From Bacteroides sp. (lineage in GTDB: Bacteria; Bacteroidota; Bacteroidia; Bacteroidales; Bacteroidaceae): a stretch of 42,924 bases of DNA. The DNA lies in assembly GCA_015060735.1 (NCBI GenBank), contig SUXX01000014.1, positions 1 to 42,924 of the forward strand. Reading direction: 5' to 3'. The notes beneath the pieces were generated by a model. It saw nothing but the letters and a program-made list of their open reading frames with translations. It had not been told where the DNA came from and ran no database searches. Below are positions 25,338 through 42,924 of the stretch, piece by piece. The position numbers and the translations under genes are program-made. How positions within the stretch are numbered: the stretch's first letter is position 1; the number at the start of each line of letters is the position of its first letter.

Positions 25338-26156
25338 ATGAAAAGGATTTTTGGTTTGATTGTTTGTTTTTTGGTGCTTGGTTGGGGACTTGTGGAGGCA
25401 ACAGAATCGCAGTTACAGCGTGAAAAGTCAAAAAAAGTATATTATAATGCATTCTCACACAATGATTATGAGCATGAGCGGCCTTTGTTCGATGCATTGG
25501 ATTTGGGATTTAACTGTGTAGAAGCTGATTTGTGGTTGATTGATGGAGAACTTTATGTGTCTCATGATAAGCCGGAAGTCAGCCCGGAGATTACTTTTGA
25601 GAAGTTATATTTGCTTCCTTTGGCCGAAAGGATTGCTGCAAACAACGGGAAGGTGCATCGGAAAGGGAAGAAGCCATTTTTTTTGATGATTGATTGCAAA
25701 TCAAATGGTGAAGAGATGTTGCCTGTTTTGAAGAAGAAATTGGAACCTTATCGTTATCTGTTTTGCTCATTGGAAAGTGGAAAATATAAAGAAGGAGCCG
25801 TACTTTTGTTCTTGTCCGGCGACAATCCTCGGCAAACAATTCTTTCGTCGGAGGATGGATACATTTTCCTGGATGGACGTATCAAGGATTTGGGCAAGAA
25901 CATCGATTCAAGACTGATGCCGGTTATCAGCGATAGCTATCCTAGCTACATGACATGGAAAGGCGAAGGAGAAATTCCCGAAGCCGAATTGGAAAAGATG
26001 CGAGGATACATTCACCAGGCACATAAAGAAGGTAAGCTTTTCCGCTGGTATAGTGCTCCGGATACCCCGCAATTCAAGCGTTTCTTTCTCGAAGAAGGAG
26101 TGGACTTGGTTGGTGCGGACGATTTGCAGAGCATGCATAAAGTGTTGCAAGAATAA
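25338..26156 (+). CDS. PLC/GDPD-like phosphodiesterase (exported)
   Basis: This 272-residue protein has a signal peptide (about residues 1-21) and a TIM-barrel phosphodiesterase fold of the PI-PLC/glycerophosphodiesterase superfamily. The visible catalytic pattern is His41 in SHNDYEHERPLFDAL, Glu62 and Asp64 in CVEADLWLIDGELYVSHD (with His76), an Asp in FFLMIDCKSNGE near 118, and a C-terminal LVGADDL strand. The sequence most resembles the AIM6-like branch, whose substrate is not established. It is the first gene of a mannosidase operon, 15 bases before a GH92 gene, and is followed by an alkaline phosphatase two genes on. Cleavage of a phosphodiester on a mannose glycan or an inositol-phosphate link is plausible but unproven. 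Confidence 0.75.
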   Translation: MKRIFGLIVCFLVLGWGLVEATESQLQREKSKKVYYNAFSHNDYEHERPLFDALDLGFNCVEADLWLIDGELYVSHDKPEVSPEITFEKLYLLPLAERIAANNGKVHRKGKKPFFLMIDCKSNGEEMLPVLKKKLEPYRYLFCSLESGKYKEGAVLLFLSGDNPRQTILSSEDGYIFLDGRIKDLGKNIDSRLMPVISDSYPSYMTWKGEGEIPEAELEKMRGYIHQAHKEGKLFRWYSAPDTPQFKRFFLEEGVDLVGADDLQSMHKVLQE

Positions 26157-26171
26157 TGTAAAAAAGAATAT

Positions 26172-29093
26172 ATGAAGAAAATTAACTTATTACCTTTGTT
26201 TCTAATCCTTTTGTCGGCATGTAGCATGTCACAAAAGTCGCCAATCGATTATGTCGATCCTTTCATCGGTACCGGATTTCATGGACATACTTATCCTGGT
26301 GCAACTGTTCCTCAAGGTGCGGTTCAGTTGAGTCCTGATACTCGTCGAGGAGGTTGGGATGGCTGTTCGGGCTATCATTATAGCGATTCTACCATTTTAG
26401 GTTTTTCGCATACTCACTTGAGTGGTACCGGTTGTGCCGATTTGGCGGATGTACTTCTTCGTCCGACTTCCCAGTCTGTAACTTTGGGAGGAGAAGGCGA
26501 TATCTATCAACCGGCATCGTTCTCGCATCAGAAAGAACAGGCTCGCCCAGGGTATTATTCAGTAGAACTGCTTGATGAACAAATCAAAGCCGAGTTGACT
26601 GCTACTACCTATGCCGGTATGCATCGATATACCTTTAAAGGTGGAAAGGAAGCATCCATTATTTTGGATTTGGCTCACTCCATAGCCGATTGGGAACAAA
26701 TCTATAACACGTCGGTTGAGCAGACAGGTGCTGCTGAAATCACCGGTATGCGTCATACTTTGACTTGGGTAGACAATCAATACGTTTATTTTGTGGCTCA
26801 ATTCTCCAAGCCTATTCAGAAGGTTCTTTATGTAAAAGATAATAAGGAAGTTGCTGTGGATGGTAAATTGGAAGGTTCGGATGTGCAGGCTGTCCTTTCT
26901 TTTGGAAACGAAGAAGAGATTATCGTGAAAGTAGGTTTGTCGATTGTCAGTGCAGAGAATGCTCGCGAGAATTTGGCTCACGATATGCCTGATTTCAACT
27001 TTGATGCTATCAGTCAGCAAGCTCATGCTACTTGGAATGAAGTGCTTTCTAAAGTACAAGTGAAGGGTGGTACAGAAGACCAGTTGAAGAATTTCTATAC
27101 AGCATGGTATCATGCATTGGTGGTACCGAATACCGTGAGTGATGTGAACGGACAATACCGTCGTCACGATATGTCCATAGGAACGTTGGGACAAGGCAAG
27201 AAGATGTATTCTACTTTCTCCATTTGGGATACTTTCCGTGGCTGGCATCCATTGATGACTTTGACCAATACTGACTTTGTGAATGACATGGTTCAGTCCT
27301 TTTTGAATATGTACGAAGCTACGGGAGAACTGCCTATCTGGCCACTTTCTGCCGGCGAAACGTGGTGCATGATTGGTTACCATTCGGTTTCGGTCATTGC
27401 GGATGCTTATTTGAAAGGTATTCGTGGCTTTGATGCGGAAAAGGCGTTGGAAGCCATGATTGCTTCTTCTGAAATCAACAAGAAGAATGCTGCAGAGTAC
27501 ATCCAGTACGGATATATTCCTTCCAACCGTCGTGAATCCGTATCTTGCTTGTTGGAGTATGCTTACGACGACTGGGCTATCGCACAAATGGCTAAGGCCA
27601 TGGGTAAGATGGATGTTTACGAAACATACATTACCCGTTCACAAAATTATCATCATGTATTTGATGGTGTAACCCGTTTCTTCCGTGCAAAGCGAATGGA
27701 CGGAAACTGGGAGGAAAACTTTGTACCCGAAGCTGTTGGTCGTGAATTTACCGAAGCAACTGCTTGGCAATATCGTTTCTTTGTACCACACGATGTGAAT
27801 GGTATGGTTAACTTGTTTGGTGGAACCGAAGACTTTACCCAAGCATTGGATGATTTGTTCTCAACCACCAAAGGGGTAGAAGGCCATCAGTCGGACATTA
27901 CCGGTTTGATTGGTCAATATGCCCATGGAAACGAACCGAGCCACCACATGGCTTACTTATATAATTATATCGGTCAGCCTTGGAAAACTCAGGCATGGAC
28001 ACGCCGCTTGTTGGATGAAATGTATCAGCCTACACCGGAAGGTATCAGTGGTAATGAAGACTGCGGTCAGATGTCAGCATGGTATATCTTGAGTGCTTTG
28101 GGCTTTTATCCGGTTTGTCCGGGTAGTAATGAATTTGTCTTGACTACTCCGCAATTTGATCAGGTTGATTTGAAGTTGGCGAATGGAAAGACATTGACCA
28201 TTACGGCGAACAATCCGAAGAAGAATGTCTATATTGATCAAGTAACCTTGAATGGTCAGGCCATCGATAAGAACTTCATCACTTATGAACAGTTGATGGA
28301 AGGCGGTACGTTGGCATATACCCTGGTCGACCAACCGAATACGGATCGTGGTACATCGGTTGAGGCCTTCCCTTATTCGTATACAGCAGGCAAAGTCGTT
28401 TCTATCCCTTCCATCTCAAAGGACTTGAATTTGTTTATGGATGAAATCACGTTCAGTATCGTCTCAGCTACCGAAGGTTGCCGCATTTATTATACATTGG
28501 ATGGAACAGAACCAACCGAAAAGTCGATGTTGTATGAAAAGCCAATCACATTGACAGAAAGTAAGACCATCAAGGCTAAGGCTTTCAAGGAAGGATATGA
28601 ACCGAGCCATACCTATACTGCCCAAGCTACCAAGACCAAACTTCGTCCGGCTCGTTCGGCACAAGGTGTACAGAACGGAGTGAACTACGAACATGTATTG
28701 GGTAAGTTCAGCAAGGTAGCCGAGTTTGTTCAAGCCAAGGTTGTAGATAAGGGCATCTTGCCGGAACCTTCTTTGGAAAAGGCCCAGCAGGAAGACCGTT
28801 ATGGATTCACCTTTACGGGAGTGATTCAAGTACCGGAAGATGGTGTCTATACATTCAGCGTAAAATCGGATGATGGTAGTATGCTGTATATCGACGATGA
28901 AATGGTAGTGGACAATGACGGTTCTCATGCGGCAGTAGCAGCCATGGGTAAAATACCTTTGAAAAAAGGATTCCATTCTTTCCGCTTGCTCTATTTGGAG
29001 GACTATGAAGGACAGGAGTTGAGTTGGGCTTGGAAGTTACCTTCTAAGGAGCAATTGGAACCCATTCCTGCATCAGTGTTGTATGTTAAATAA
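26172..29093 (+). CDS. GH92 alpha-mannosidase lipoprotein with Hex_C-like and PA14 domains
   Basis: This 973-residue exo-alpha-mannosidase belongs to glycoside hydrolase family 92, calcium-dependent inverting enzymes that trim mannose from N-glycans and mannans. The lipobox LLSAC places the lipid on Cys17; no acidic run follows, so a periplasm-facing location is likelier than the surface. GH92 motifs are YVDPFIGTGFHGHTYPGA, GFSHTHLSGTGCADL, GETWCMIGYHSVS, HGNEPSHHMAYLY and GNEDCGQMSAWYILSALGFYP (catalytic acidic residues). After the catalytic region (to about 735), residues about 740-820 resemble a chitobiase/hexosaminidase C-terminal domain (IYYTLDGTEPTEKS), and about 825-973 a PA14 domain (FSVKSDDGSMLYIDDEMVVDNDG). 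The linkage preferred cannot be read with certainty. Its stop overlaps the next start (TAATG). Confidence 0.92.
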   Translation: MKKINLLPLFLILLSACSMSQKSPIDYVDPFIGTGFHGHTYPGATVPQGAVQLSPDTRRGGWDGCSGYHYSDSTILGFSHTHLSGTGCADLADVLLRPTSQSVTLGGEGDIYQPASFSHQKEQARPGYYSVELLDEQIKAELTATTYAGMHRYTFKGGKEASIILDLAHSIADWEQIYNTSVEQTGAAEITGMRHTLTWVDNQYVYFVAQFSKPIQKVLYVKDNKEVAVDGKLEGSDVQAVLSFGNEEEIIVKVGLSIVSAENARENLAHDMPDFNFDAISQQAHATWNEVLSKVQVKGGTEDQLKNFYTAWYHALVVPNTVSDVNGQYRRHDMSIGTLGQGKKMYSTFSIWDTFRGWHPLMTLTNTDFVNDMVQSFLNMYEATGELPIWPLSAGETWCMIGYHSVSVIADAYLKGIRGFDAEKALEAMIASSEINKKNAAEYIQYGYIPSNRRESVSCLLEYAYDDWAIAQMAKAMGKMDVYETYITRSQNYHHVFDGVTRFFRAKRMDGNWEENFVPEAVGREFTEATAWQYRFFVPHDVNGMVNLFGGTEDFTQALDDLFSTTKGVEGHQSDITGLIGQYAHGNEPSHHMAYLYNYIGQPWKTQAWTRRLLDEMYQPTPEGISGNEDCGQMSAWYILSALGFYPVCPGSNEFVLTTPQFDQVDLKLANGKTLTITANNPKKNVYIDQVTLNGQAIDKNFITYEQLMEGGTLAYTLVDQPNTDRGTSVEAFPYSYTAGKVVSIPSISKDLNLFMDEITFSIVSATEGCRIYYTLDGTEPTEKSMLYEKPITLTESKTIKAKAFKEGYEPSHTYTAQATKTKLRPARSAQGVQNGVNYEHVLGKFSKVAEFVQAKVVDKGILPEPSLEKAQQEDRYGFTFTGVIQVPEDGVYTFSVKSDDGSMLYIDDEMVVDNDGSHAAVAAMGKIPLKKGFHSFRLLYLEDYEGQELSWAWKLPSKEQLEPIPASVLYVK

Positions 29094-30247
29094 TGAAAGA
29101 TATGAAAAAAACATTGTTGAAATTAGGAGTAGCTTGTTTGTTGCTTGGAGTAACAAGCATGGTTAATGCACAAGAAAAGGCTGCCAAACTTCACACATAC
29201 GTGATGGAGCATCCTTATGAAGTGCAACAGATTCTTCCTCCCAAAGGAAAAAAAGTAAAGAATGTCATTCTGATGATTGGCGACGGCATGAGTTTGATGC
29301 ATGTATATTCGGCATGGACTGCCAATCGCGGTAAACTCTTTTTGGACAATGCACAGGCAATCGGTCTTTCAAAGACTTATTGTGCCGATAAATTGATTAC
29401 CGACTCGGGTGCTGGTGGTACAGCCATGGCAATCGGTCAGAAAACCAAATATCACAGTGTAGGGGTGGATGTGAATGGCAATCCGCAACCTTCTTTAATC
29501 ACCTTGGCTAAGCAAAAAGGCATGTCAGCCGGTGTTGCGGTAACTTGCCGTTTGTGGGATGCAACCCCTGCCGACTTTTGTTGCCACGATGTAGACCGTG
29601 ATAATGAATATGGGATTATTGCCGACTATGTGGAGTGTGATGCCGATTATGTGGTAGGAGGTGGTGCCGAGAAGTTTGTAAACCGCCCGGACGGACGCGA
29701 CATCTTCAAGGAACTGGAAGCAAAAGGTTATCAGGTAGCCCGTAGCTGGGAAGAATGTCAAGCCTTGGAAGGTGGACGAATCTTTGCGGTAACCGAACCG
29801 AGAGATACACCGCTTCCGGCAGAAAGAGGGGATCGTTTGGCCGCATCTGCATTGAAAGGGATGGACATCATGGATAAGAACAAGAAAGGGTTTTTCATGA
29901 TGATTGAAGGTTCTCAATTGGACGACTATGGTCATTTCAATGATTTGGACCTCTTGATGCAAGAAACACACGACTTCGACCGTACCGTAGGTAAGGTGTT
30001 CGAATGGGCTGCTAAAGATGGAGAAACATTGGTGATAGTTACTGCCGACCATGAAACCGGTGGTTTGACTTTGGTGGATGGTGACTTGAGCAAAGGTGAA
30101 ATTCAATGCCGCTTCTCTACAACCAGTCACTCGGGTGTGATGGTTCCGGTATATGCCTTTGGCCCGGGAGCCGAAAACTTCACAGGAATGTATGAAAACT
30201 CGGATATATTTCATAAGATTGTTAAACTATTAAAACTTAATAAATAA
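29093..30247 (+). CDS. Alkaline phosphatase
   Basis: This exported phosphomonoesterase of the alkaline phosphatase superfamily has 384 residues. A signal peptide ends at about VNAQ. Metal-binding and catalytic motifs are VILMIGDGMSL, DSGAGGTAMAIG with the nucleophile Ser at about residue 105, MIEGSQLDDYGHFND, TADHETGG and TTSHSGVMVPVYAFGPGA. All the zinc ligands expected for a PhoA-like enzyme appear present. ATG 29093 overlaps the GH92 stop; ATG 29102 (MKKTLLKLGV) is an equally good start. Inside a glycan-degrading operon it probably removes phosphate from phosphorylated sugars released by the phosphodiesterase or mannosidases; that link is inference. Its stop overlaps the GH63-type gene by TAATG. 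Confidence 0.88.
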   Translation: MKDMKKTLLKLGVACLLLGVTSMVNAQEKAAKLHTYVMEHPYEVQQILPPKGKKVKNVILMIGDGMSLMHVYSAWTANRGKLFLDNAQAIGLSKTYCADKLITDSGAGGTAMAIGQKTKYHSVGVDVNGNPQPSLITLAKQKGMSAGVAVTCRLWDATPADFCCHDVDRDNEYGIIADYVECDADYVVGGGAEKFVNRPDGRDIFKELEAKGYQVARSWEECQALEGGRIFAVTEPRDTPLPAERGDRLAASALKGMDIMDKNKKGFFMMIEGSQLDDYGHFNDLDLLMQETHDFDRTVGKVFEWAAKDGETLVIVTADHETGGLTLVDGDLSKGEIQCRFSTTSHSGVMVPVYAFGPGAENFTGMYENSDIFHKIVKLLKLNK

Positions 30248-31854
30248 TGAAAAACACAGTATTTGTATGTTTGGTGGCTCTGATGAGCCTGTTGGCTGTC
30301 ACTGCTCGGGCACAGAGCTGCGGTAATGACAGTATTTATAAGATTCCTTATAAGAATACGTATGTAAAGTCTACATTGGCTGCTGATAATGAATTCCGCA
30401 CCATGCGTCCTAATTATATGGAAATCCCTACTTTCGAACAAGCTAAAAAGATTCTTCCGGTACCCATCTGGGCAGGTCACGACAAGGAAGTAGAAATGTA
30501 TTGGAAAGCATGGGAAATCGGTGTGGGTAATATCCGTAATCCGCAACCGGGTTCTGGTTTTGTAAGCCCTTATATTGATACTGCTTATAATGGCAACATT
30601 TTTATGTGGGACTCGGCTTTCATCTTGATGTTTGCCCGTTATGGCGAACGTTTCTTCCCATTCCAGAAGACTTTGGATAACTTCTATGCAAAGCAACATC
30701 CAGACGGCTTTATCTGTCGCGAAATCATGGCGAACGGTGCCGACTGTTTCGAACGTTACGACCCAACCAGCACTGGCCCGAACTTGTTGCCATGGTGCGA
30801 AATGGTCTACTATCATCAGTTTGGAGATACCGAACGTTTACACAAGATTTTCCCGGCACTTTGTGGCTACTATGAATGGCTGAGATTGAACCGTACTTGG
30901 CGTAACGGTACTTACTGGACTAGTGGTTGGGGTACAGGTATGGACAATATGCCACGTGTAAAGAGCGAATATAATCCTATTTACAGCCACGGTCACATGA
31001 TTTGGTTGGATACTAACTTGCAGCAGATTTTCACAGCCGGTTTGTTGTTGGAACTCGGTTTCTATACAGAACGTTGGCAAGAAATTGAAACCTTGGAAGA
31101 TGAAGCCAAGATGTTGAAGAAGTATGTCCGTGAAAATTTGTGGGATGAAAAGACTGGTTTCCTCTATGACCAATATGCAGATGGCTCTTTGTGTACAACC
31201 AAGGGTATCGGTGCATTCTGGGCATTGCATGCCGATGTCTTGACAGACGACCAATTGAAGCGTTTGGTAGCCGAATTGGATAATCCGGAAACTTTCAAGA
31301 GACCTTTCCGTGTGCCATCATTGGCTGCTAACCATCCTCGTTACAAAGAAAATGGCCGCTATTGGCAAGGTGGTATTTGGCCGGGTACCAACTACATGAT
31401 TATGCGTGGTTTGATGGATAAGGGATTCCGCAAGCAAGCTCGCGAAATCGCTTTGAGCCATTACGACCAAATTTTCCAGGTATACAAGAAGACCGGTACT
31501 TTCTATGAATACTATGCTCCGGAAGCTGCTGAACCGGGATTTATGGCTCGCGATAACTTTATCGGTTGGACAGGTTTGGCTCCAATTGCTGAATTTATTG
31601 AGTTCATCATTGGTATCCGTGGTGATTATCCTACCAAGACCATTGTATGGGATGTGAACTTGACAGAAGCAAACGGTATTGAACGTTATCCTTTCGGTCC
31701 GGAAGGCAATATCAGTTTGAAGGCGGCTGCCCGTCGCTCGGCTACAGAAAAGCCACGTATTGAAGTAGATTCAAATATTCCGTTCAAGTTGGTTGTACGT
31801 TACGGGGATAAGGAAGAAACTTATCAAGTAAATGCTGGTAAATCCAATTATTAA
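30247..31854 (+). CDS. GH63-type (MGH1-like) glycoside hydrolase
   Basis: This 535-residue exported enzyme has a signal peptide (about 1-22, ending ARAQ) and an (alpha/alpha)6 barrel of the GH63/mannosylglycerate-hydrolase-like group. Typical segments are FMWDSAFILMFARYGERF (about residue 119), GTGMDNMPR with candidate acid Asp233, YWQGGIWPGTNYMIMRG near 373 and TFYEYYAPE with candidate base Glu421. GH63 enzymes include processing alpha-glucosidase I, which removes the glucose cap of newly made N-glycans, and bacterial enzymes acting on mannosylglycerate or glucosides, so the substrate is open. It sits between an alkaline phosphatase and a ROK kinase with overlapping or close spacing. Confidence 0.72.
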   Translation: MKNTVFVCLVALMSLLAVTARAQSCGNDSIYKIPYKNTYVKSTLAADNEFRTMRPNYMEIPTFEQAKKILPVPIWAGHDKEVEMYWKAWEIGVGNIRNPQPGSGFVSPYIDTAYNGNIFMWDSAFILMFARYGERFFPFQKTLDNFYAKQHPDGFICREIMANGADCFERYDPTSTGPNLLPWCEMVYYHQFGDTERLHKIFPALCGYYEWLRLNRTWRNGTYWTSGWGTGMDNMPRVKSEYNPIYSHGHMIWLDTNLQQIFTAGLLLELGFYTERWQEIETLEDEAKMLKKYVRENLWDEKTGFLYDQYADGSLCTTKGIGAFWALHADVLTDDQLKRLVAELDNPETFKRPFRVPSLAANHPRYKENGRYWQGGIWPGTNYMIMRGLMDKGFRKQAREIALSHYDQIFQVYKKTGTFYEYYAPEAAEPGFMARDNFIGWTGLAPIAEFIEFIIGIRGDYPTKTIVWDVNLTEANGIERYPFGPEGNISLKAAARRSATEKPRIEVDSNIPFKLVVRYGDKEETYQVNAGKSNY

Positions 31855-31865
31855 TAAGGAATGCC

Positions 31866-32825
31866 ATGAAAAATTACGTAATAGCTTGTGATTTAGGTGG
31901 TACCAATACCGTGTTTGGCGTAGTTGATAAGGAAGGGAATGTATTGCATCAAACTTCTTTTAAAACCCAGACTTATCCGAATCTTTCGGATTTTGTCAGC
32001 CGTTGTGGAGAAGCCATCCGTTTCTTGCTAGAAAAGATTGGAGGGACAGAGACGGTGAAAGCCATTGGCATCGGAGCACCGGATGTGAATTATTGGGATC
32101 GTACTATTGAGAATGCAACGAACTTGCCTTGGAAGGGTGTTGTTCCATTGGCTGAATTATTGGAACAGGAAATTTCACTTCCTGTTCGTATTACTAATGA
32201 TGCCAAGGCAGCCGCTTTGGGAGAAATGCTATATGGTGCTGCAAGGGGAATGAATGATTTCATTATGCTTACTTTGGGTACAGGTGTAGGCAGTGGTATC
32301 GTTGTAAATGGCAAATTGGTTTATGGCCGTAAAAGTTTTGCCGGCGAATTGGGACATGTATCTATACGCCCGGAGAGTGGACGTCCTTGTCCTTGTGGTC
32401 GTAAAGGATGTTTGGAAACATACTGCTCGGCTACAGGAGTTGCTCAAACAGCTCGTGACTTATTGGCATCGTATACAGATAGTCCATTGCATGAGATGAA
32501 TCCGGCTGATATTACTTCTAAGGATGTATATGATGCAGCTATGCAAGGCGATGCTTTGTCCTGTGAAGTTTTCCGTTTGACAGGAGAGTGGCTAGGTGAA
32601 GCTTGTGCTGATTTTGCAACTTTCTCTGACCCTGAAGCATTTATTTTCTTCGGAGGGTTGACAAAGGCTGCCAACTGTTTTATGCCTCATCTGATAGAGA
32701 CTTATCAAAAAACAGTGTTTGATAATTATAAGGGTACTGCCAAATTCTTAATTTCTCAGTTGGAAGATGGTAATGCAGCTTTATTGGGTGCTGCCGCGTT
32801 GGCTTGGTTGGATGAAATTGAATAA
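31866..32825 (+). CDS. ROK-family sugar kinase
   Basis: This 319-residue cytoplasmic kinase of the ROK family phosphorylates hexoses (glucose, mannose, fructose or N-acetylated sugars). It has the ATP-binding CDLGGTNTVFG loop, catalytic Asp in RITNDAKAAALGE (Asp112), the phosphate motif TLGTGVGSGIV, His164 in GELGHV, and a complete zinc motif CPCGRKGC at residues 175-182. There is no DNA-binding domain, so it is an enzyme, not a repressor. In this operon it would phosphorylate the mannose or glucose released by the hydrolases. The substrate is not readable from sequence. Confidence 0.88.
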   Translation: MKNYVIACDLGGTNTVFGVVDKEGNVLHQTSFKTQTYPNLSDFVSRCGEAIRFLLEKIGGTETVKAIGIGAPDVNYWDRTIENATNLPWKGVVPLAELLEQEISLPVRITNDAKAAALGEMLYGAARGMNDFIMLTLGTGVGSGIVVNGKLVYGRKSFAGELGHVSIRPESGRPCPCGRKGCLETYCSATGVAQTARDLLASYTDSPLHEMNPADITSKDVYDAAMQGDALSCEVFRLTGEWLGEACADFATFSDPEAFIFFGGLTKAANCFMPHLIETYQKTVFDNYKGTAKFLISQLEDGNAALLGAAALAWLDEIE

Positions 32826-32842
32826 AAATTTAAATAAAAAAA

Positions 32843-34303: not shown

Positions 34304-34315
34304 AATGGTGAAAAT

Positions 34316-34348
34316 AAAAAAGGAGGAATTTGATTTCCTCCTTTTTTT
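34316..34348 (+). terminator. Terminator of mannosidase operon A
   Basis: AGGAGGAA (34321-34328) pairs with TTCCTCCT (34335-34342), extended by A-T pairs, with a 6-base loop and a long T-tract. Confidence 0.85.
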
Positions 34349-34377
34349 GTTTTTATATCTAAATTATTGTAAGTTTG
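34346..34377 (+). promoter_or_regulatory. Promoter of operon B
   Basis: TTTG (34346-34349) at the end of the terminator T-tract is followed after 20 bases by TAAGTTTG (34370-34377), matching the Bacteroidota consensus. The GH92 start is 23 bases downstream. Confidence 0.7.
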
Positions 34378-34400
34378 CATATCGTAAAAATAATAATACC

Positions 34401-36632
34401 ATGAAACGCATGCTTCTTTCATTTTGGGCTGTTTCTCTAGCCTTGGCTATGGCATATGCCTCTCCTCAACAGAAACTTCTTACTCGTTATGTAGACCCAT
34501 TTATTGGCACAGATTATGTTGGACATACGTATCCGGCTGCCACTTTACCTTTTGGTATGGTGCAAGTCGGCCCAGACAACTTTCCTAAATGGACGTGGGA
34601 TTATTGTGCCGGTTATAACTTTGATTCAGATTTTCTCCGGGGATTTTCACATACCCATCTCAGCGGTACAGGATGTGCCGACATGGGAGATGTACTGTTC
34701 ATGCCGGTTACTGGTGAAGTACCTTTCGTTCACGAATCGGAAGAAAAAAGCTACGGTTCGCACTATTCGCACAAAACTGAGGCTGCTTGGCCGGGGTATT
34801 ACGGAGTGCATCTGACCGATTATAATATCAAAGTGGATTTGGCAGCTACTCGGCGGGCAGCATATCATCGTTATCAATACCCTCGCCACGAACAATCGGG
34901 TATTCTTATCGATTTAGAACATGGCATCAACGATCAGGTTATCGAAAGTTTTGTCCGTGTTGTGGATTCTCAAACCGTGGTAGGCTTCCGTCGCTCCAAG
35001 GGTTTTGTCAAAGATCATCAATATTATTTCTATGCACGTTTTTCGAAACCGTTCGAACAGGTTACTACTTATGTAGACGGTAAAACCGGAATATCAAGCG
35101 ATGTAAAAGGGAAGGCTGTAAAGATGTTGCTTCGCTTTGCTACTGAAATGGGAGAAAATGTGGACATCAAGGTCGGACTTTCTACAATCAGTACGGAGGG
35201 AGCCAAGCATAATGTGGAAACCGAAATTCCGGTGTGGGGGATTCAGAAGGTAATTCGTGAAGCAGAAGAAACATGGCATAGCTATTTGAGCCGTATTGAG
35301 ATGGAAGAACTCACAGAAGGACAGAAAGTATCGTTTTATACTTCATTATATCATTCACTTATCATGCCGAATCTGGTGACAGACATAGATGGTCAGTATG
35401 TAGGTTGGGATCATAAGCCCCATCATTGTGAGGAAGGTGAACTTTTTACCAACTTCTCACTGTGGGATACCTATCGTGCACAACACCCGTTCCTCAATCT
35501 GATGTATCCGGAAATGAATAGTGCGATGATTCGCTCCATGCTTGAAAAATATCGCCAGACAGGTTTATTGGTTACCAATGAATATGGTTTGTGTGAAACC
35601 TGGTGTATGATTGGAAACCATGCAGTGAATCCGATAGTGGATGCCTATCTGAAAGGTGACCGTTCTTTCGATGCCGAATTGGCTTATGAGGCAGTGAAAA
35701 AATCGATGACTCATGATCATAATAAAGCCGATTGGACTAAATACAATCAATATGGTTATTTCCCATACGACGATAGTTATATCGAAAGCGTATCGCGTAC
35801 GTTGGAATCATGTTACGATGATTATTGCGTAGCCATGATGGCTAAAGCTATGGGAAAGATGGCTGATTATAGGTTCTTCTTAAAACGTGCTGAAAATTAC
35901 CGTAACTTGTTTGATAAAGAAACTGGATTCATGCGTGCCCGCGATACTCAAGGACAATGGTATGAACCATTCAACCCGGCTGCCCTTATCACTCCAACGC
36001 CTAACAAACGTCGTGATTATACGGAAGGTAATGCTTGGCAATGGACTTGGCATGTGCAACACAATCCGGAAGGTTTGATTAAATTGTTCGGAAATAAGCA
36101 GGCCTTTGTTGCTAAGCTGGATTCTTTATTCCAACAAGACCCCAGCAAAATTCCGGGTGCTGAAGAAATTCCAGATGTAACAGGGCTTATCGGACTTTAT
36201 TCACACGGAAACGAACCAAGCCACCATGTCGCTTATCTTTATCCTTACGCGGATCGTCGCGACCGTACGGCCGAGATTGTTCGTCGTGTATTCGATGAGT
36301 TTTATCTCGCCTCACGTGATGGTCTCTGTGGTAATGATGATTGTGGACAAATGTCAGCCTGGTATATGTTCTCCGGAATGGGGTTCTATCCTGTAGATCC
36401 GGTTTCTGGCCAATACGTGTTCGGTGCTCCTCAGTTTAAGTTTATGAAGTTATCGCTTCCGAACGGCAAATCATTGGAGATAAAGGCTAACAATATCAGT
36501 AAAGAAAATCTGTACGTGAAATCTATCCGTTTTAATGGTAAATTATTAAAGGGACGTACTATCAGTTACGAAACCATTATGCAAGGCGGTGTACTGGAAT
36601 ATGACATGACACACGAACTGATAAAGAAATAA
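34401..36632 (+). CDS. GH92 alpha-mannosidase (periplasmic)
   Basis: This is a second GH92 exo-alpha-mannosidase, 743 residues, without the extra C-terminal domains of the first. The start ATG 34401 gives a signal peptide (MKRMLLSFWAVSLALAMAYA); an in-frame ATG at 34305 lies before the terminator and promoter and is rejected. GH92 motifs are YVDPFIGTDYVGHTYPAA, GFSHTHLSGTGCADMGDVL, CETWCMIGNHAVNPIVDAYLKG, HGNEPSHHVAYLYPY and GNDDCGQMSAWYMFSGMGFYP. No lipobox is seen, so it is probably a soluble periplasmic enzyme. Differences from the first enzyme near WTWDYCAGYNF suggest a different linkage preference. It is first in operon B, 6 bases before a ROK kinase. Confidence 0.93.
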   Translation: MKRMLLSFWAVSLALAMAYASPQQKLLTRYVDPFIGTDYVGHTYPAATLPFGMVQVGPDNFPKWTWDYCAGYNFDSDFLRGFSHTHLSGTGCADMGDVLFMPVTGEVPFVHESEEKSYGSHYSHKTEAAWPGYYGVHLTDYNIKVDLAATRRAAYHRYQYPRHEQSGILIDLEHGINDQVIESFVRVVDSQTVVGFRRSKGFVKDHQYYFYARFSKPFEQVTTYVDGKTGISSDVKGKAVKMLLRFATEMGENVDIKVGLSTISTEGAKHNVETEIPVWGIQKVIREAEETWHSYLSRIEMEELTEGQKVSFYTSLYHSLIMPNLVTDIDGQYVGWDHKPHHCEEGELFTNFSLWDTYRAQHPFLNLMYPEMNSAMIRSMLEKYRQTGLLVTNEYGLCETWCMIGNHAVNPIVDAYLKGDRSFDAELAYEAVKKSMTHDHNKADWTKYNQYGYFPYDDSYIESVSRTLESCYDDYCVAMMAKAMGKMADYRFFLKRAENYRNLFDKETGFMRARDTQGQWYEPFNPAALITPTPNKRRDYTEGNAWQWTWHVQHNPEGLIKLFGNKQAFVAKLDSLFQQDPSKIPGAEEIPDVTGLIGLYSHGNEPSHHVAYLYPYADRRDRTAEIVRRVFDEFYLASRDGLCGNDDCGQMSAWYMFSGMGFYPVDPVSGQYVFGAPQFKFMKLSLPNGKSLEIKANNISKENLYVKSIRFNGKLLKGRTISYETIMQGGVLEYDMTHELIKK

Positions 36633-36638
36633 AGAATC

Positions 36639-37601
36639 ATGAAAAATCTGATAGGAATTGATATAGGCGGCACCAAGTGTGCTGTCACATATGGTCGTTG
36701 TGAGGGTAGTTCTGTCGAATTGGTAGATAAACTTCGGTTTGATACGACTCATGTGCAAGAAACACTTGGAAACCTTTTGGACACAACAGCCCAATTGATG
36801 AAACGTCACGGTTTGACGCCTGAAAATGTGAGTGCTATCGGTATCAGTTGTGGTGGTCCATTAGATAGCAAACGTGGGATAATACTTTCACCACCTAATC
36901 TGCCGGGTTGGGATTCTATTGAGATTGTGAAATTATTTCAGGATCGTTTCTGTATACCTGCTGCTATACAGAACGATGCCAATGCTTGTGCATTAGCTGA
37001 ATGGACTTTTGGTGCCGGAGTAGGTACGCAAAACATGATATTTTTGACTTTCGGTACGGGACTGGGAGCGGGGTTGATATTAAATGGTAAACTATATGCC
37101 GGTACTAATGATAACGCCGGTGAAGTAGGGCATGTGCGATTAAGTGATTACGGCCCAGTTGGCTATGGAAAAAGCGGCTCCTTCGAAGGATTTTGTAGTG
37201 GAGGAGGTATTCGTCAGCTTGCCATTAGCAAAGCCAAGGAACAATTGCAAATGGGGTTGACAGTGAGTTGGTGTCCCAATGGAGATGTAGAAAGCATAGA
37301 TGCTCGAATCGTAGCTGAGGCTGCCCGTGCAGGTGATGAATTGGCTCTTGCTGTTTATCGTGACTCTGCTTTGCAACTCGGCCGAGGATTGGCTTTCCTT
37401 GTGGACATTCTTAATCCCGAAAAGATTGTCATCGGTAGCATTTATACTCGTTGCGAAGATCTCATGGCACCTTATGTTGCAGAAGTATTGGAACGCGAGG
37501 CTCTGCCTTTAGCTAACGCTGTCTGTCAGGTTGTTCCGGCAGTTTTAGGAGAAACAATTGGAGATTATGCAGCTTTGTCTGTGGCGGCAGCTCATTCATG
37601 A
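36639..37601 (+). CDS. ROK-family kinase lacking the zinc motif
   Basis: This is a second ROK kinase, 320 residues. It has the ATP loop GIDIGGTKCAV, catalytic Asp in IQNDANACALAEW (Asp113), the TFGTGLGAGLI loop and His155 in GEVGHV. The usual Cys-x-Cys-Gly-x-x-Gly-Cys zinc site is replaced by a Gly-rich stretch (residues about 161-178, YGPVGYGKSGSFEGFCSG). ROK kinases without this site exist, for example among N-acetylmannosamine or allose-type and mannokinase groups, so specificity may differ from the first kinase. It lies between a GH92 and a GmhA-like gene with 6- and 15-base spacing, implying one transcript. The substrate is unknown. Confidence 0.85.
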   Translation: MKNLIGIDIGGTKCAVTYGRCEGSSVELVDKLRFDTTHVQETLGNLLDTTAQLMKRHGLTPENVSAIGISCGGPLDSKRGIILSPPNLPGWDSIEIVKLFQDRFCIPAAIQNDANACALAEWTFGAGVGTQNMIFLTFGTGLGAGLILNGKLYAGTNDNAGEVGHVRLSDYGPVGYGKSGSFEGFCSGGGIRQLAISKAKEQLQMGLTVSWCPNGDVESIDARIVAEAARAGDELALAVYRDSALQLGRGLAFLVDILNPEKIVIGSIYTRCEDLMAPYVAEVLEREALPLANAVCQVVPAVLGETIGDYAALSVAAAHS

Positions 37602-37616
37602 TTAATGATTCATCTA

Positions 37617-38198
37617 ATGAAAGAACAAATCATAGCGAATAGTCTTGCGGAAGCCCGCGATACATTAGAAAGATTCTTAGCCCATCCTCATACGATAAAC
37701 AGTATCGGTGAAATGGTAAATGTCATGTCGGCAGCTTTAAAACAGGGAGGTAAAATTTTAAGTTGTGGTAATGGTGGTTCTTTATGCGATGCTATGCACT
37801 TTGCAGAAGAATTGACCGGACGATTTCGTAAGAATCGACGTCCATTACCTGCTATGGCCATCAATGATCCTGCTTACCTGACTTGTACAAGCAACGATTT
37901 TTCTTATGAAGAAACTTTTTCCCGTTGGGTAGAGGCTTTTGGGTGTCCGGGGGACGTTCTGTTGGGAATTAGCACTAGCGGAAACTCTGAAAATGTATTA
38001 CGGGCAGTCCGTATGGCACATGAAAAAGGATTGAAAGTTATAGCTTTGACTTGCGAAAGTGATAATCCTCTTTGTCGGGAAGCCGATGTATCTGTCTGTG
38101 CTCCTTGTTCTCGCTATTCAGATCGTATACAGGAAATCCATATCAAGGTTATTCACATAGCTATTGAGGCGTTGGAGACAGAAATGGGTTTTGAATGA
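37617..38198 (+). CDS. gmhA: GmhA-type SIS-domain sugar-phosphate isomerase
   Basis: This 193-residue protein closely resembles E. coli phosphoheptose isomerase, which converts sedoheptulose 7-phosphate to D-glycero-D-manno-heptose 7-phosphate. Shared segments, from memory, are GGKILSCGNGGSLCDAMHFAEELTGR, SNDFSYEETFSRWVEA, GDVLLGISTSGNSENVLRA and DRIQEIHIKVIHIAIE, which include the zinc and catalytic residues. The ATG 37617 (MKEQIIANSLAEA) matches the E. coli start and length (192); ATG 37605 would add four residues. It is last in operon B, an unusual place for an LPS-heptose gene, beside a ROK kinase. It may act on another manno-configured sugar phosphate here. Confidence 0.85.
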   Translation: MKEQIIANSLAEARDTLERFLAHPHTINSIGEMVNVMSAALKQGGKILSCGNGGSLCDAMHFAEELTGRFRKNRRPLPAMAINDPAYLTCTSNDFSYEETFSRWVEAFGCPGDVLLGISTSGNSENVLRAVRMAHEKGLKVIALTCESDNPLCREADVSVCAPCSRYSDRIQEIHIKVIHIAIEALETEMGFE

Positions 38199-38402
38199 TT
38201 AGACAATTTTCTCGCAAACAACTATTTCTGTTCCCCGATATACTACCACAATCTTGTGTAGGGTAGTGGTGCCGATATGGCGTCGAACCACTTTGCTTGC
38301 GGTATAGCGATTAGCTTGGGCAAATGCTGTATTGTAGAGGTCGTATTTTCCATATGTGTTATCTGAATCCAATGAGAAACTGGAGATATAAAGGAGAAAC
38401 AA

Positions 38403-38436
38403 AAAAATCCCTGCTCCAAGTGGAGCAGGGATTTTT
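38403..38436. terminator. Two-way terminator between operon B and susD
   Basis: A perfect 15-bp stem (38403-38417 with 38422-38436, 4-base loop AAGT) is flanked by T-runs on both strands, so it ends operon B and the SusCD transcript. The 269-base gap between the two operons otherwise holds a minus-strand reading frame (38199-38441) discussed in the findings. Confidence 0.9.
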
Positions 38437-38467
38437 ATCATAAATAAACTTTGTTCAAAGCGGATGA

Positions 38468-40090
38468 TTAATAACCCGGGTTCTGAGTTAAGTTCGGGTT
38501 GCGTTGGATTTCATTTAATGAAAGCGGCCACAACAAGTCTGAATCCTTAAATGTTCCACCTGAACCATTCTGTGCACCTACCAAGTTTACATATGTAACT
38601 TTACCCTTTTCGGTAGCATCAACTACAGGGAATTTACCTGTACGAACGCAGTCATCCCAAATCTTGAATTCTAATGGGAATTCACGAAGACGTTCGGTCC
38701 AAACTGCTTCAATGAAAGCTTCCTTAGAAAGTCCTTGCAATTCTGTTGCGATTTGAGCTTCAGTCTTACCTTCCATGTTTGCACGAGCCTGAACTTTAGC
38801 CAAATAACCGGCTGCTTCAGCAGTTACACCTTCTGTCTGTGCAATAGCTTCTGCACCGTACAGCAAAGCTTCTGCATAACGCCATACATCACGGTCCTTT
38901 GCACCACGGCCTGAAGAAAGTACAGCTTGTTCATCATACCAATACCAGCAACCTGCCCACAAGTATTCACCTGTTGTGGCATCCTTATCTGCACTCCAAG
39001 TTAAGCCAGATTCAGGGTGAGTGTATTCCCAGTGGAAGAACTGATTAGGTTGGATACGCATATCATTAGCTTCATAGATATTCAAGAACTGGTTTGAAGG
39101 AGTAAATACACGTTCAAAAATAGAATATGTACCGAAAAGACCTGTAGCCTTAGTATCAAATGCATAAGTCGGCCACCAACCACCATTAGAGATAGTCGTG
39201 TTAAATTCATATGCATAAATAGTTTCAGCCAAACCATCTTCCTTACGAAGGGTATTGTAAGCTGTTTCGTAACGAGTTGCATCGAAGTTATTTACATCGA
39301 ATGCTGCATTGTGAGGAGTCAAGCCATGAGCAGAAGAATTGATGACAGCCTTTACTGCAGAAGCTGCATTTGAATAATCACCTTGATACATGTACACTTC
39401 AGCCAACAACATTGAAGCAGCAGCACTAGGAACTCTCATGCCATTCTCAGCTTGTGTACCAGCTGGCAATCCTGGGATAGCATCCTTCAAATCGCTTACG
39501 ATAGCAGCCAAAACTGTTGCTTTCGGAGAACGTTCCAATTGCATTTCACTTGCGTCTACACCATATACATCAGTATAGAATGGGATATCGCCCCACATCT
39601 TAACCATTGCAAAGTAGTTCCATGCACGGAAGAATTTTGCTTCAGCAATCATTTGTGACTTAGTAGCATCGCTGTCAAAGTCCACTTCTGGAGCTGACTT
39701 AAGAACCATATTAGCAGAGTTGATGGCACGATAACAAGCATCCCACAAATCATCCATAGATTTTGAAATAATCTGTTCGTTACCTTGTCTGGTCAACTTA
39801 CGAGCATATTCACAAATAGACTCCTGACCTTCGTAAATGTTCTGGAAATAACCTGTCAACATGCTGTTAACAGTTGAAATATTACCCATATATGCAGAAC
39901 CTGCACCTGTCAATTTATTAGGAGCACCGGTACGATACAAATAGTTCACAGCCTGCTCTATCTGAATTTGATCTTGGTAGAAGAGATTGGATGTCATTGT
40001 TGATTTTGGTTCTTCATCCAAGAATGAGTCACATGCACTGAAGCCGATAAGGCATGCACATGCCATCATTGAGGTTAATATCTTTTTCAT
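38468..40090 (-). CDS. SusD/RagB-family glycan-binding lipoprotein
   Basis: SusD proteins are surface lipoproteins that bind the target glycan and close over a SusC transporter. The 540-residue protein has lipobox GFSAC (Cys20) followed by DSFLDEEPKS, an acidic surface-export context, and the SusD N-terminal pattern (SNLFYQDQIQIEQAVNYLYRTG). Next are TPR-type helices (AEAKFFRAWNYFAMVKMWGDIPFYT) and the typical C-terminal region ending LRWPLS-like: DLLWPLSLNEIQRNPNLTQNPGY. It lies 33 bases downstream of the susC-like gene and ends at a two-way terminator shared with operon B. The glycan bound is inferred from the neighbouring mannosidases, not visible in the protein. Confidence 0.94.
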   Translation of the reverse strand: MKKILTSMMACACLIGFSACDSFLDEEPKSTMTSNLFYQDQIQIEQAVNYLYRTGAPNKLTGAGSAYMGNISTVNSMLTGYFQNIYEGQESICEYARKLTRQGNEQIISKSMDDLWDACYRAINSANMVLKSAPEVDFDSDATKSQMIAEAKFFRAWNYFAMVKMWGDIPFYTDVYGVDASEMQLERSPKATVLAAIVSDLKDAIPGLPAGTQAENGMRVPSAAASMLLAEVYMYQGDYSNAASAVKAVINSSAHGLTPHNAAFDVNNFDATRYETAYNTLRKEDGLAETIYAYEFNTTISNGGWWPTYAFDTKATGLFGTYSIFERVFTPSNQFLNIYEANDMRIQPNQFFHWEYTHPESGLTWSADKDATTGEYLWAGCWYWYDEQAVLSSGRGAKDRDVWRYAEALLYGAEAIAQTEGVTAEAAGYLAKVQARANMEGKTEAQIATELQGLSKEAFIEAVWTERLREFPLEFKIWDDCVRTGKFPVVDATEKGKVTYVNLVGAQNGSGGTFKDSDLLWPLSLNEIQRNPNLTQNPGY

Positions 40091-40123
40091 TGTTTAATTC
40101 TTGTTTAATTTATTAGTAAATCA

Positions 40124-42924
40124 TTAGAATGATACATTAACACCGAATGTAAATGTTCTAGCTCTTGGATAAGAGAAGAATGCCAAGTTCTGACCGAATT
40201 GGTTAGTACCTTGTGAAGTTGCTTCAGGGTCGAAACCTTCGAACTCATCCGAGCAAATCAAGAACAAGTTGTTAGCAGAAGCATACAAACGCAAAGCAGA
40301 CAAGCCAAGAGGTTCAATCACCTTAGAGTCGAATGTATAACCCAACTGAAGCATGTTCATACGGAGGTAAGAACCATCAACTACCCATGCAGAGTCGTTC
40401 ATTGAATCCTGACCAGACTTAGGAGCAATGAAGATTGCCTGTTGCATAGTTGTTGGATTGGTACCGTCATAAGCATCATAAAGAATGTTGTCCAAACCGT
40501 TTGTCATACCGAAACGGTCGTATGTAGAGTGATAGAACTGTTGAGTAGTTTCAACACCCAATACAAACTGCATATCTACTGTCAAGTCGAAATTCTTGTA
40601 ACGGAAGTTGTTGATCCAGCTACCTGTCCAGTCTGGAGTACCTTTACCCAAAATAGACTTGTTAGCTTCACGCTTAGCACGACCAATCTTCTTTTGTTCA
40701 CACAAACCATTCTGATAATCTTCTACAGTCCATACGCCCAAACGCTTGTAGCCATAGAATGCACCCATTGATTCACCTACACGCAAGATCGCATTAGCAC
40801 CTGATACGAAACCAATTTGTTCGATATCTGCATTGGTGTCACCCAACGCCAAGATTTCGTTCTTATTGTAGTTAGCACTCAATGTAGAGCTCCAGCTGAA
40901 ATCTTCAGTATCGAATGGACGACCTGAAATCATGATGTCGAAACCTTGGTTACGTACAGAACCGATATTCTTATAAATAGAAGTAAAACCTGTTGAGTGA
41001 GGAACCGGACAGTCGAGCAACAAGTCGGTAGTCTTCTTGTTATAGTAAGATACATCGAATGTCAAACGGTTTTGCCACAAGCCCAATTCAACACCGAAGT
41101 CGATTGTTGCAGTCTTTTCCCACTTCAAATCTTGGTTAGCCAACGAACTCATGTAAGCATAAGGATTACGTGCATCGTCCAGCAACAATGTACCTGAACC
41201 AATACGACCCAATGAACGGTATACACCGATTTCAGAGTTACCGGTCAAACCGTAAGAACCATGAACTTTCAAGTTACTGATAGTTTGGTTGTCAATCAAC
41301 CAAGATTCACGAGAAACATTCCATGCCAAACCTACTGAAGGGAAGAACGCATACTTGTTACTTTCACCGAACTTAGAAGAACCATCATAACGACCGGTAG
41401 CGGTTACAGAGTAACGATCTTTGTAGTTATACATCAAACGCAAGAAGTATGAGTTCATTGCCCAACGAGTCCATTCCGATTCCGGAGATGAAGGATTGGT
41501 ACCTGCACCCATGTTGTTGTCTTCAAAGAAGTCATCTGAGAAACCTTCTGTATACGAACGGTTACGTTGGTAAACGCGTTCCTGCCAAGATAGACCAAGC
41601 ATTGCGTTCAAACGATGGTCATCGTTGAAAGTCTTGTTGTAAGTCAAGTAGGTTTCTTCTTGCCAATAAGTTGTACCGTAATGAGTATAATCAGCCCAAC
41701 CATTAGGCATAGAGATATTATTCAATGTGATTGAAGAATAACCTCTGTATTCACGGTTAGAGTGGTCGATACCAAACTGAGTCTTCAAATCCAAACCTTC
41801 CATCAAATGGAATGTCAAAGCTGCATTACCGAAAATCTTTGTGTTGTAATTTCTACGCTTTTGCAAATCCAAAATCATAACAGGGTTAGACATACCTTCC
41901 AAACCAGAGAAGCTTGGAGTTGCAGCTGTAGTATATTTGCCATCATACTTCACCGGTAACCAAGGTACCATTTCAATTAATGTACGACGAGCATCCTGTC
42001 CACCACCAGTTTCAGGACTATAACGTCCCCAAGTGTGATTCACCATCAAGTTTACAGAAGTCGACAACCACTTAGTTGGCTTAGCATCGTATGCAATCTT
42101 GCCGCTGATACGCTTGCTGTAAGTGTTGTTAACAACACCTTGTTGGTCAGTATAGTTCAAGAATGCACCCATAGATGAGTTACCGCTAGCCTGCTGGATA
42201 TTCAACTGATGGTTGTGAGAAACAGCTGTACGGGTAGCTTCATCTTGCCAATTAGTGTCATAGATCGGGTTACCGTTAGAATCGAAGAAGCGTCTGTCGC
42301 TGAAATAGTCGTTTGCCCAGTCTGTTGAATAACCAGCATCGTACCATTTGTTAGCATTTTCAATACCAATTTTGTAAGCTTCCACCCATTCCTGAGCGTT
42401 CATGGTATCCATCTTACGAGCCATAGAAGCAACGCTTACAGAACCTTGATAAGAGATTTGAGTACCGTCGCCACCCTTCTTACCACGCTTGGTAGTTACC
42501 ATGATAACACCGTTAGCACCACGAGCACCGTAGATAGCAGTTGCAGAAGCATCCTTCAATACTTCCATTGATTCGATGTCGTTCGGGTTTACCAAGTAGA
42601 AGTCTTCCATTACCACACCGTCCACTACATACAATGGGTCTGAAGAAGCATTGATGGTAGACTGACCACGGATAATAACGCGGCTAGCTTGTGCACCCGG
42701 CTGAGAAGAGTTAGAGAAGATGTTTACACCGGCAGCCTTACCACGCAATGCATCCAATGCACTAAATTCCTGACCTTTGATCAAGTCTTCACCTTTGGCT
42801 ACAGAGATAGAACCGGTAACGTCTGACTTACGCATCACACCGTAACCTACTACTACCAATTCGTCCAAAGCCTGAGTGTCTTCGGTCAAAGTGATGTTCA
42901 AGGCTTGACCGTTCCATGCTACTT
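40124..42924 (-). CDS. SusC/RagA-family TonB-dependent transporter, 5' end outside window
   Basis: This is a partial gene; 933 codons lie in the window and the reading frame stays open to the edge (VAWNGQALNITLTEDTQ). The missing part should hold the signal peptide and most of the N-terminal carboxypeptidase-like extension. Visible are the end of that extension, the motif LDELVVVGYGVMRKSDVTGSIS, the plug domain (LRGKAAGVNIFSNSSQPGA, VIIRGQSTINASSDPLYVVDGV, VLKDASATAIYGARGANGVI) and a 22-strand-type barrel ending in FTFGVNVSF. It imports glycan fragments with energy from TonB-ExbBD; an ExbBD-TonB module lies at 2.4-4.4 kb. It pairs with the SusD lipoprotein downstream. Substrate inferred from neighbours only. 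Confidence 0.95.
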   Translation of the reverse strand, partial: VAWNGQALNITLTEDTQALDELVVVGYGVMRKSDVTGSISVAKGEDLIKGQEFSALDALRGKAAGVNIFSNSSQPGAQASRVIIRGQSTINASSDPLYVVDGVVMEDFYLVNPNDIESMEVLKDASATAIYGARGANGVIMVTTKRGKKGGDGTQISYQGSVSVASMARKMDTMNAQEWVEAYKIGIENANKWYDAGYSTDWANDYFSDRRFFDSNGNPIYDTNWQDEATRTAVSHNHQLNIQQASGNSSMGAFLNYTDQQGVVNNTYSKRISGKIAYDAKPTKWLSTSVNLMVNHTWGRYSPETGGGQDARRTLIEMVPWLPVKYDGKYTTAATPSFSGLEGMSNPVMILDLQKRRNYNTKIFGNAALTFHLMEGLDLKTQFGIDHSNREYRGYSSITLNNISMPNGWADYTHYGTTYWQEETYLTYNKTFNDDHRLNAMLGLSWQERVYQRNRSYTEGFSDDFFEDNNMGAGTNPSSPESEWTRWAMNSYFLRLMYNYKDRYSVTATGRYDGSSKFGESNKYAFFPSVGLAWNVSRESWLIDNQTISNLKVHGSYGLTGNSEIGVYRSLGRIGSGTLLLDDARNPYAYMSSLANQDLKWEKTATIDFGVELGLWQNRLTFDVSYYNKKTTDLLLDCPVPHSTGFTSIYKNIGSVRNQGFDIMISGRPFDTEDFSWSSTLSANYNKNEILALGDTNADIEQIGFVSGANAILRVGESMGAFYGYKRLGVWTVEDYQNGLCEQKKIGRAKREANKSILGKGTPDWTGSWINNFRYKNFDLTVDMQFVLGVETTQQFYHSTYDRFGMTNGLDNILYDAYDGTNPTTMQQAIFIAPKSGQDSMNDSAWVVDGSYLRMNMLQLGYTFDSKVIEPLGLSALRLYASANNLFLICSDEFEGFDPEATSQGTNQFGQNLAFFSYPRARTFTFGVNVSF

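Follow-up and report, generated by a model that had tools for sequence, protein, structure and literature searches.

A phosphoesterase-rich Bacteroidales locus of the polysaccharide utilization type with glycosylphosphatidylinositol anchors as a candidate substrate

Genes at the locus

Contig SUXX01000014.1 of the Bacteroides sp. assembly GCA_015060735.1 (42,924 nucleotides, below called the window; contig C27 of genome G000 in our numbering) comes from a metagenome-assembled genome that is 81% complete at 2.45 Mb, and its part from 25338 onward carries a locus of the polysaccharide utilization locus (PUL) type with an unusual load of phosphoesterases. A sequence-only reading of the window had proposed a phosphorylated mannose glycan, such as that of glycosylphosphatidylinositol (GPI) anchors, as its target. 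The GH92, alkaline phosphatase and GH125 proteins of that proposal, as well as SusD and SusC proteins, were all found in place by profile matches when 11 proteins from 25338-42924 were scanned against domain profiles, while its phosphodiesterase could be assigned to a family only through a motif, a distant homologue and record naming, and a GH63-like glycosidase, two ROK kinases and a GmhA-like isomerase had been overlooked.

The first unit (25338-34303) consists of six forward-strand genes separated by 15, -1, -1, 11 and 17 bases. It begins with a phospholipase C/glycerophosphodiester phosphodiesterase (PLC/GDPD)-like enzyme (PDE, 25338-26156), which is followed by the predicted exo-alpha-mannosidase GH92a with a lipobox and with CHB_HEX_C-like (chitobiase-C-like) and PA14 modules (26172-29093), an alkaline phosphatase (AlkP, 29093-30247), a GH63/mannosylglycerate-hydrolase-like glycosidase matching PF22422 (30247-31854), the ROK sugar kinase ROK1, assigned by family match (31866-32825), and a GH125 enzyme (32843-34303). 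All of these except ROK1 have leader-like N-termini and are probably exported, though leaders were judged by eye and with a simple pattern whose hit on ROK1 is clearly spurious.

AlkP matches PF00245 with 206.7 bits (cut-off 24.4) and has 2w5v as its closest solved sequence, to which it aligns over TDSGAGGTA and further stretches that we take to be the nucleophile and metal ligands. Membership of the last enzyme in GH125, a family of exo-alpha-1,6-mannosidases, is clear at 585 bits and would supply the alpha-1,6-mannosidase that degradation of a GPI glycan calls for. The PDE protein alone has no match in Pfam, NCBIfam or PDB sequences, but a distant homologue (28%) passes the GDPD_2 cut-off (27.9 versus 27 bits), a 57% homologue carries the RefSeq record name "phosphatidylinositol-specific phospholipase C/glycerophosphodiester phosphodiesterase family protein", and residues H41, E62, D64, H76, D119 and K121 are invariant in 18 aligned sequences, the window protein included.

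Directly after GH125, an intrinsic-terminator-like hairpin with a T run (34316-34347, forward strand) is followed by a TTG-N20-TAAGTTTG motif (34347-34377, forward strand), both recognised by consensus matches, the latter to what we take to be the Bacteroidota promoter consensus. This motif occurs six times on the forward strand of the whole window, compared to 2.65 expected per strand in mononucleotide shuffles; a sigma-70 scan was uninformative (35 sites, 38.9 expected). Because hairpin and promoter motif divide 25338-34303 from 34401-38198 and genome G100 holds the first unit without the second, 25338-38198 is probably two transcription units and not the single operon of the sequence-only reading.

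The second unit, also on the forward strand, comprises a further predicted exo-alpha-mannosidase, GH92b (34401-36632; the listed reading frame starts at 34305, the likelier start is 34401, and searches started from 34305 or 34404), the ROK sugar kinase ROK2, a family match (36639-37601), and a GmhA-like SIS phosphosugar isomerase (37605-38198). The isomerase is rare in the genus, with matches at E < 1e-10 in just four of 61 genomes (G000, G027, G100 and G052), so that a housekeeping role in heptose metabolism is unlikely; nor is it needed as the sole mannose-6-phosphate isomerase, a type I enzyme being encoded on G000:C22. In G027 the SIS homologue adjoins a 57% identical ROK2 homologue, and the pair could serve a heptose or an unusual mannose route.

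A SusD-like protein (38468-40090) and a SusC-like TonB-dependent transporter (40124-42922, its N-terminus past the contig end) follow on the reverse strand, convergent to the enzyme genes. They are 60% and 73% identical, respectively, to the pair of a Parabacteroides distasonis mannosidase locus and are of another lineage. In G100, a SusD 55% identical to that of the window likewise lies convergent beside the first unit. Membership of this pair and of the second GH92 unit in the same system, which had been assumed before, is hence not clear. No linked regulator was found among the 11 scanned proteins, and the contig ends inside SusC. Upstream of the region lie tRNA-His and the housekeeping genes ffh and folD; an Mfa1/Mfa2-like fimbrillin and anchor pair is found at 17233-19508.

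Phosphoesterases accompany the locus-specific AlkP

Across 61 genomes of the genus, an AlkP orthologue (68-100% identical) is present in eight, while most other AlkP matches have 30-39% identity and short pieces reach 47%. GH92a lies beside AlkP in seven of these eight genomes (in G050 with an EEP phosphoesterase in between), and GH125 is found within 10 kb in six. In all, 25 of the 61 genomes carry 26 copies of GH125, and no other AlkP lies on the same contig within 20 kb of any of them. Other genomes repeat the order GH92-phosphatase-GH63-like-GH125/ROK, so the arrangement is more than chance.

As a control, the same phosphoesterase profiles were run against the 18 GH125 loci of the genus that have no AlkP, two fragments (G010 and G005) of the 26 having been dropped. 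Another phosphoesterase lies within ca. 12 kb in all six AlkP-linked GH125 loci but in only one of the 18 others. The first comparison had unequal flanks, and the controls were then widened to ca. 15 kb where contigs allowed, which added no match in 26 extra stretches, so that an EEP enzyme remains the sole control match; with narrow flanks of ca. 9.4 kb the numbers are three of six versus one of 18 (p 0.035). These phosphoesterases are therefore a trait of the AlkP loci and not one of mannosidase loci at large.

A scan of named genomes found 163 AlkP relatives, of which the best 80 were used and 79 laid out (in L112 the AlkP frame was not found). In their operons, taken as the same-strand run around AlkP, the GH63-like enzyme is the commonest partner (62 of 79), followed by SusD (50), SusC (46), GH92 (44), EEP (37), calcineurin-like type 2 enzymes (32), ROK (24), calcineurin-like type 1 or phosphatidylinositol-specific phospholipase C (PI-PLC; 21), GH125 (20), PDE domains (17) and GH20 (12). 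Clusters were named after scanned representatives, with one member checked for GH20 and all 39 proteins scanned for EEP. A further phosphoesterase is present in 67 of the 79 operons and GH92 or GH125 in 45; over the whole fetched stretches, several of them on short contigs, GH92 is found in 48 loci and GH125 in 22.

That the commonest common set is AlkP, the GH63-like enzyme and phosphoesterases would fit another phosphodiester glycan, for example a glycerol-phosphate teichoic acid with alpha-glucose, which could be degraded by a GDPD-like enzyme, phosphodiesterases, AlkP and a GH63-like alpha-glycosidase, with the mannosidases as lineage add-ons. It would also fit the 34 of 79 delimited operons that hold neither GH92 nor GH125, though for some of them the contig is short or a GH92 lies a little beyond the operon, and the true GDPD cluster in two of 79 loci. 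However, such a substrate leaves PI-PLC in or near the locus, the locus-specific GH92 clade, GH125 and GH20 unexplained, and we consider it unlikely.

All 39 EEP proteins of these loci match the general EEP family, and 11 of them also the C-terminal domain of PGAP2IP (E 0.01 or better; best 5.4e-13). A protein of ca. 268 residues (e.g., L138:9100-9903) is encoded in 14 of the 79 loci, directly after the EEP enzyme in 12, and has no Pfam match in the two relatives scanned (L138 and L201).

Compared to G100, DNA identity is 98.1% for GH92a, 99.7% for AlkP and 98.9% for the GH63-like gene, with 86.7% for PDE, 93.6% for GH125, 77.3% for ROK1 and 79.8% for another contig pair. As its identity exceeds that of these neighbours and of the other contig pair, the block 26172-31854 looks like a recent transfer between species.

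PI-PLC and domain fusions

PI-PLC (PF00388) scores above cut-off in eight of the 61 genus genomes, and it is present in seven of the eight AlkP genomes versus one of the 53 others (Fisher p 1.4e-7, relatedness uncorrected). The one AlkP genome without it, G010, is 54% complete. The PI-PLCs of G050 and G051 are of a distant subtype; excluding both, the counts are six of eight versus none of 53. DnaG identity to the window genome is 84% for G010 and G037, 61% for G024 and G008, 55% for G050 and, over two thirds of the protein, 67% for G035 (none was found in G100), and 11 genomes at 75-82% have neither the AlkP orthologue nor PI-PLC. The AlkP genomes are thus scattered in what is an identity ranking, not a tree.

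On four AlkP contigs PI-PLC lies ca. 6-15 kb away from AlkP. It stands alone in G008. In G037 it is fused to a calcineurin-like enzyme that bears PA14 and sits immediately ahead of SusC, in G035 it is fused to calcineurin-like domains (a borderline match of 26.6 bits, or 22.5 versus a cut-off of 23.1), and in G024 its row also holds EEP, calcineurin-like enzymes and GH20. Seven of the 80 named loci hold PI-PLC. In the window genome it is found on another contig, C91, beside two calcineurin-like enzymes and Porin_O_P. These neighbours would suit a system whose main gain is phosphate or lipid, in which PI-PLC, phosphodiesterases and AlkP scavenge phosphate from phospholipids, phosphoinositides among them, and the glycosidases play a secondary part. 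Yet SusC/SusD pairs and GH92, GH125 and GH20 in the same operons indicate glycan import, which makes scavenging as the main function quite improbable; phosphate and glycan could well be gained together.

In Parabacteroides loci, a calcineurin-like domain is joined to a PDE domain that shares 54-59% identity with that of the window. Phocaeicola barnesiae has this calcineurin-like domain too (63% identical), but there its fusion partner is a PI-PLC with 56% identity to the PI-PLC of the window genome. Such an exchange of partners suggests one substrate for PDE and PI-PLC. A stand-alone PDE in another Parabacteroides locus has the record name of a PI-PLC/GDPD family protein, and fusions of PDE to AlkP itself also occur in related loci (L080:9985-11946 and L081:9836-11791). 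Among the three genomes of the family sample in which PDE neighbours were inspected (G000, G004 and G030), G030 carries a PDE-AlkP fusion directly 3' of a SusC/SusD pair, and neither GH92 nor GH125 is matched in the 20-kb stretch covered, perhaps a simpler phosphodiester uptake system.

Candidate substrates

The alpha-mannan PULs of Bacteroides thetaiotaomicron use GH76 and GH38 enzymes, whereas the window has no GH76 among its scanned proteins and adds AlkP and PDE, and its relatives further add EEP, calcineurin-like and PI-PLC enzymes. Shared with these PULs, as far as described in passages of PMC5930347 and PMC10167667, are SusC/SusD, GH92, GH125 and a ROK kinase. Because neither a GH76 endo-alpha-1,6-mannanase nor any endo-glycosidase is found among the 11 scanned proteins of 25338-42924, the locus does not group with yeast alpha-mannan loci, and yeast mannan or N-glycan is disfavoured as the main target. 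Their phosphorylated forms, yeast mannan with Man-1-phosphate and N-glycans with Man-6-phosphate, would gain from the 17 GH92s of the genome and from a convergent SusC/SusD that resembles a mannosidase-locus pair. But they need neither PI-PLC nor GH20, and these phosphoesterases are absent from 17 of the 18 GH125 loci elsewhere in the genus, so we regard phosphomannan as rather improbable too.

The nearest arrangements lie in relatives. Parabacteroides distasonis TSDC17.2 (L276) has the row SusC-SusD-GH92-AlkP-"trehalase family glycosidase"-"PI-PLC/GDPD family protein", the last 57% identical to PDE; it differs in lacking GH125 and ROK and in having its own SusC/SusD at the head, and is annotated by family alone. 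The "plasmid 4" that bears it, with purE, gcvH, dut and rpoN among its genes, resembles a piece of chromosome labelled as a plasmid. Phocaeicola faecicola AGMB03916 (G024; L074, L149 and L201) has GH92a, AlkP, GH63-like, GH125 and ROK in one row, with ROK after GH125 and not before it as in the window; it adds PI-PLC, EEP, two calcineurin-like enzymes, GH20 and two SusC/SusD pairs but lacks PDE. A further likeness is to the eukaryotic GPI-remodelling enzymes PGAP5/MPPE1, of the calcineurin-like family, and PGAP2IP/CWH43, through the calcineurin-like and PGAP2IP-like EEP domains of related loci, though at family level only and with no such domain in the window itself. Among the matches listed for the open-licence PMC literature (preprints and most subscription journals lie outside it), we found no description of such a locus and, by titles and abstract starts, no bacterial locus for feeding on GPI anchors.

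A phosphorylated glycan of some kind is very probably the target of the locus. For the first unit, we tentatively favour, at just short of even confidence, that it supplies the enzymes of a locus, conserved in Bacteroidales, for dismantling a phosphoinositol-mannose glycan, most likely the GPI anchor of eukaryotic cell-surface proteins. PMC7125958 gives the GPI core as EtNP-6Man-alpha-2-Man-alpha-6-(EtNP)2Man-alpha-4-GlcN-alpha-6-myoIno-P-lipid (EtNP, ethanolamine phosphate) and notes a beta-GalNAc on Man1 for many proteins. It is the best fit because no other substrate that we considered calls for PI-PLC, phosphodiesterases, a phosphatase, GH125, GH92, a GH63-like enzyme and GH20 together. 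From gene families, locus conservation, co-occurrence and fusions, which are observed, we infer the substrates of all enzymes and an order of steps. PI-PLC (encoded on the other contig here and inside the locus in some relatives) would cut the inositol-phosphate off the lipid, and phosphodiesterases (PDE here, EEP and calcineurin-like enzymes in relatives) would then open the remaining diesters, for which ethanolamine-phosphate on mannose and cyclic inositol phosphate are candidates. AlkP would remove phosphomonoesters before GH92a, GH125 and the GH63-like enzyme release mannose along with glucosamine or some similar alpha-linked sugar; in some relatives GH20 would take off a beta-GalNAc side chain. 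The imported sugars would finally be phosphorylated by the ROK kinases.

Bacterial alpha-1,2-mannosidases of GH92 are marked by a His-Glu pair and a Pro-Trp motif, according to the section of PMC12858847 on this group. By motif alignment, GH92a and GH92b both lack this His-Glu/Trp signature and are not to be taken for alpha-1,2-mannosidases, and therefore the set of four required activities on which the sequence-only reading had built is not in evidence. The His-Glu loop is equally missing from 42 of 44 locus GH92s (one has it and one could not be scored). In a quick tree, which includes an open reading frame (L234_3778) admitted by length and not among the GH92 matches, GH92a clusters with 10 of 11 sampled locus GH92s (SH-aLRT 100; L122 falls outside). 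The B. thetaiotaomicron alpha-1,4-mannosidase BT3965 is another GH92 outside the alpha-1,2 group, and its authors mention GPI anchors among the places where alpha-1,4-mannosides occur; its P520 and W526 are missing from GH92a in our alignment (positions and statement from the relevant passages of PMC5930347). A BT3965-like loop is found in another GH92 of the genome (L236:14124-16367), which groups apart from GH92a. GH92a and a type 2 calcineurin-like enzyme have a C-terminal module in common (37% over 165 residues), as if bound to the same surface. The genome has one GH125, and five of the GH92 genes in its 2.45 Mb assembly lie on contig C61.

Several observations, besides the operons without mannosidases, weigh against GPI anchors as the substrate. 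The bond between Man2 and Man3 would need an alpha-1,2-mannosidase, which the motifs of GH92a and GH92b do not offer within the window locus, while three other GH92s of the genome carry the signature (three of 11 scored elsewhere; four of the 15 GH92s outside the window lacked the scoring landmark and were dropped). Neither G000 nor G100, both of them incomplete assemblies, yielded the SusD that usually accompanies the locus, and in G008 AlkP follows SusC/SusD with no glycosidase beside it. PDE stands in the AlkP row only in the window genome and G100 (two of the eight AlkP genomes of the genus), is rare in the family (20 of 399 sampled genomes, six of them weak matches), and gave no match in profile comparison (hhalign) with a two-sequence GDPD and an eight-sequence PI-PLC alignment. 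The PI-PLC of G050, of the distant subtype (28%), is unlinked and without such neighbours. In an order-wide sample, with an AlkP limit of 400 bits chosen after the scores were seen, PI-PLC occurs in two of nine AlkP genomes versus 16 of 384 others (p about 0.06), and this pair consists of the window's own genome and one with the genes on different contigs. Finally, relatives of the locus occur in Gelidibacter and Sunxiuqinia, presumably marine genera, so an animal host is not required.

Bacterial phosphatidylinositol mannosides or lipoarabinomannan would likewise demand a PI-type phosphodiesterase, a phosphatase and alpha-mannosidases. Their inositol is mannosylated at O-2, however, which should block PI-PLC, and they have no need of GH20, making them a very unlikely target. 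The idea of a phosphorylated mannose or GPI glycan gains from the linkage to AlkP, the linkage and co-occurrence of PI-PLC within the genus, the interchange of PI-PLC and PDE in fusions and the GH20 and PGAP2IP-like members, but loses its alpha-1,2-mannosidase as well as SusC/SusD and the second GH92 unit as assured parts.

Going further, the locus family might be dedicated to GPI anchors, a possibility that we hold with somewhat more doubt than belief: GPI-proteins or free GPI would be shaved from eukaryotic cells and both glycan and phosphate taken up, with new specificities in the locus-specific GH92 clade and the GH63-like enzyme (e.g., for Man-alpha-1,4-GlcN or GlcN-alpha-1,6-inositol). 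GPI anchors occur widely on the surfaces of eukaryotic cells, those of the gut epithelium and of fungi among them. If the proposal is true, gut bacteria would have a route to protein anchors, GH92s of unusual linkage may have found a role, and the enzymes would provide a toolkit for GPI analysis. Whatever the substrate, this phosphoesterase-rich locus is a defined and testable system that ranges from Phocaeicola to Prevotella and Parabacteroides.

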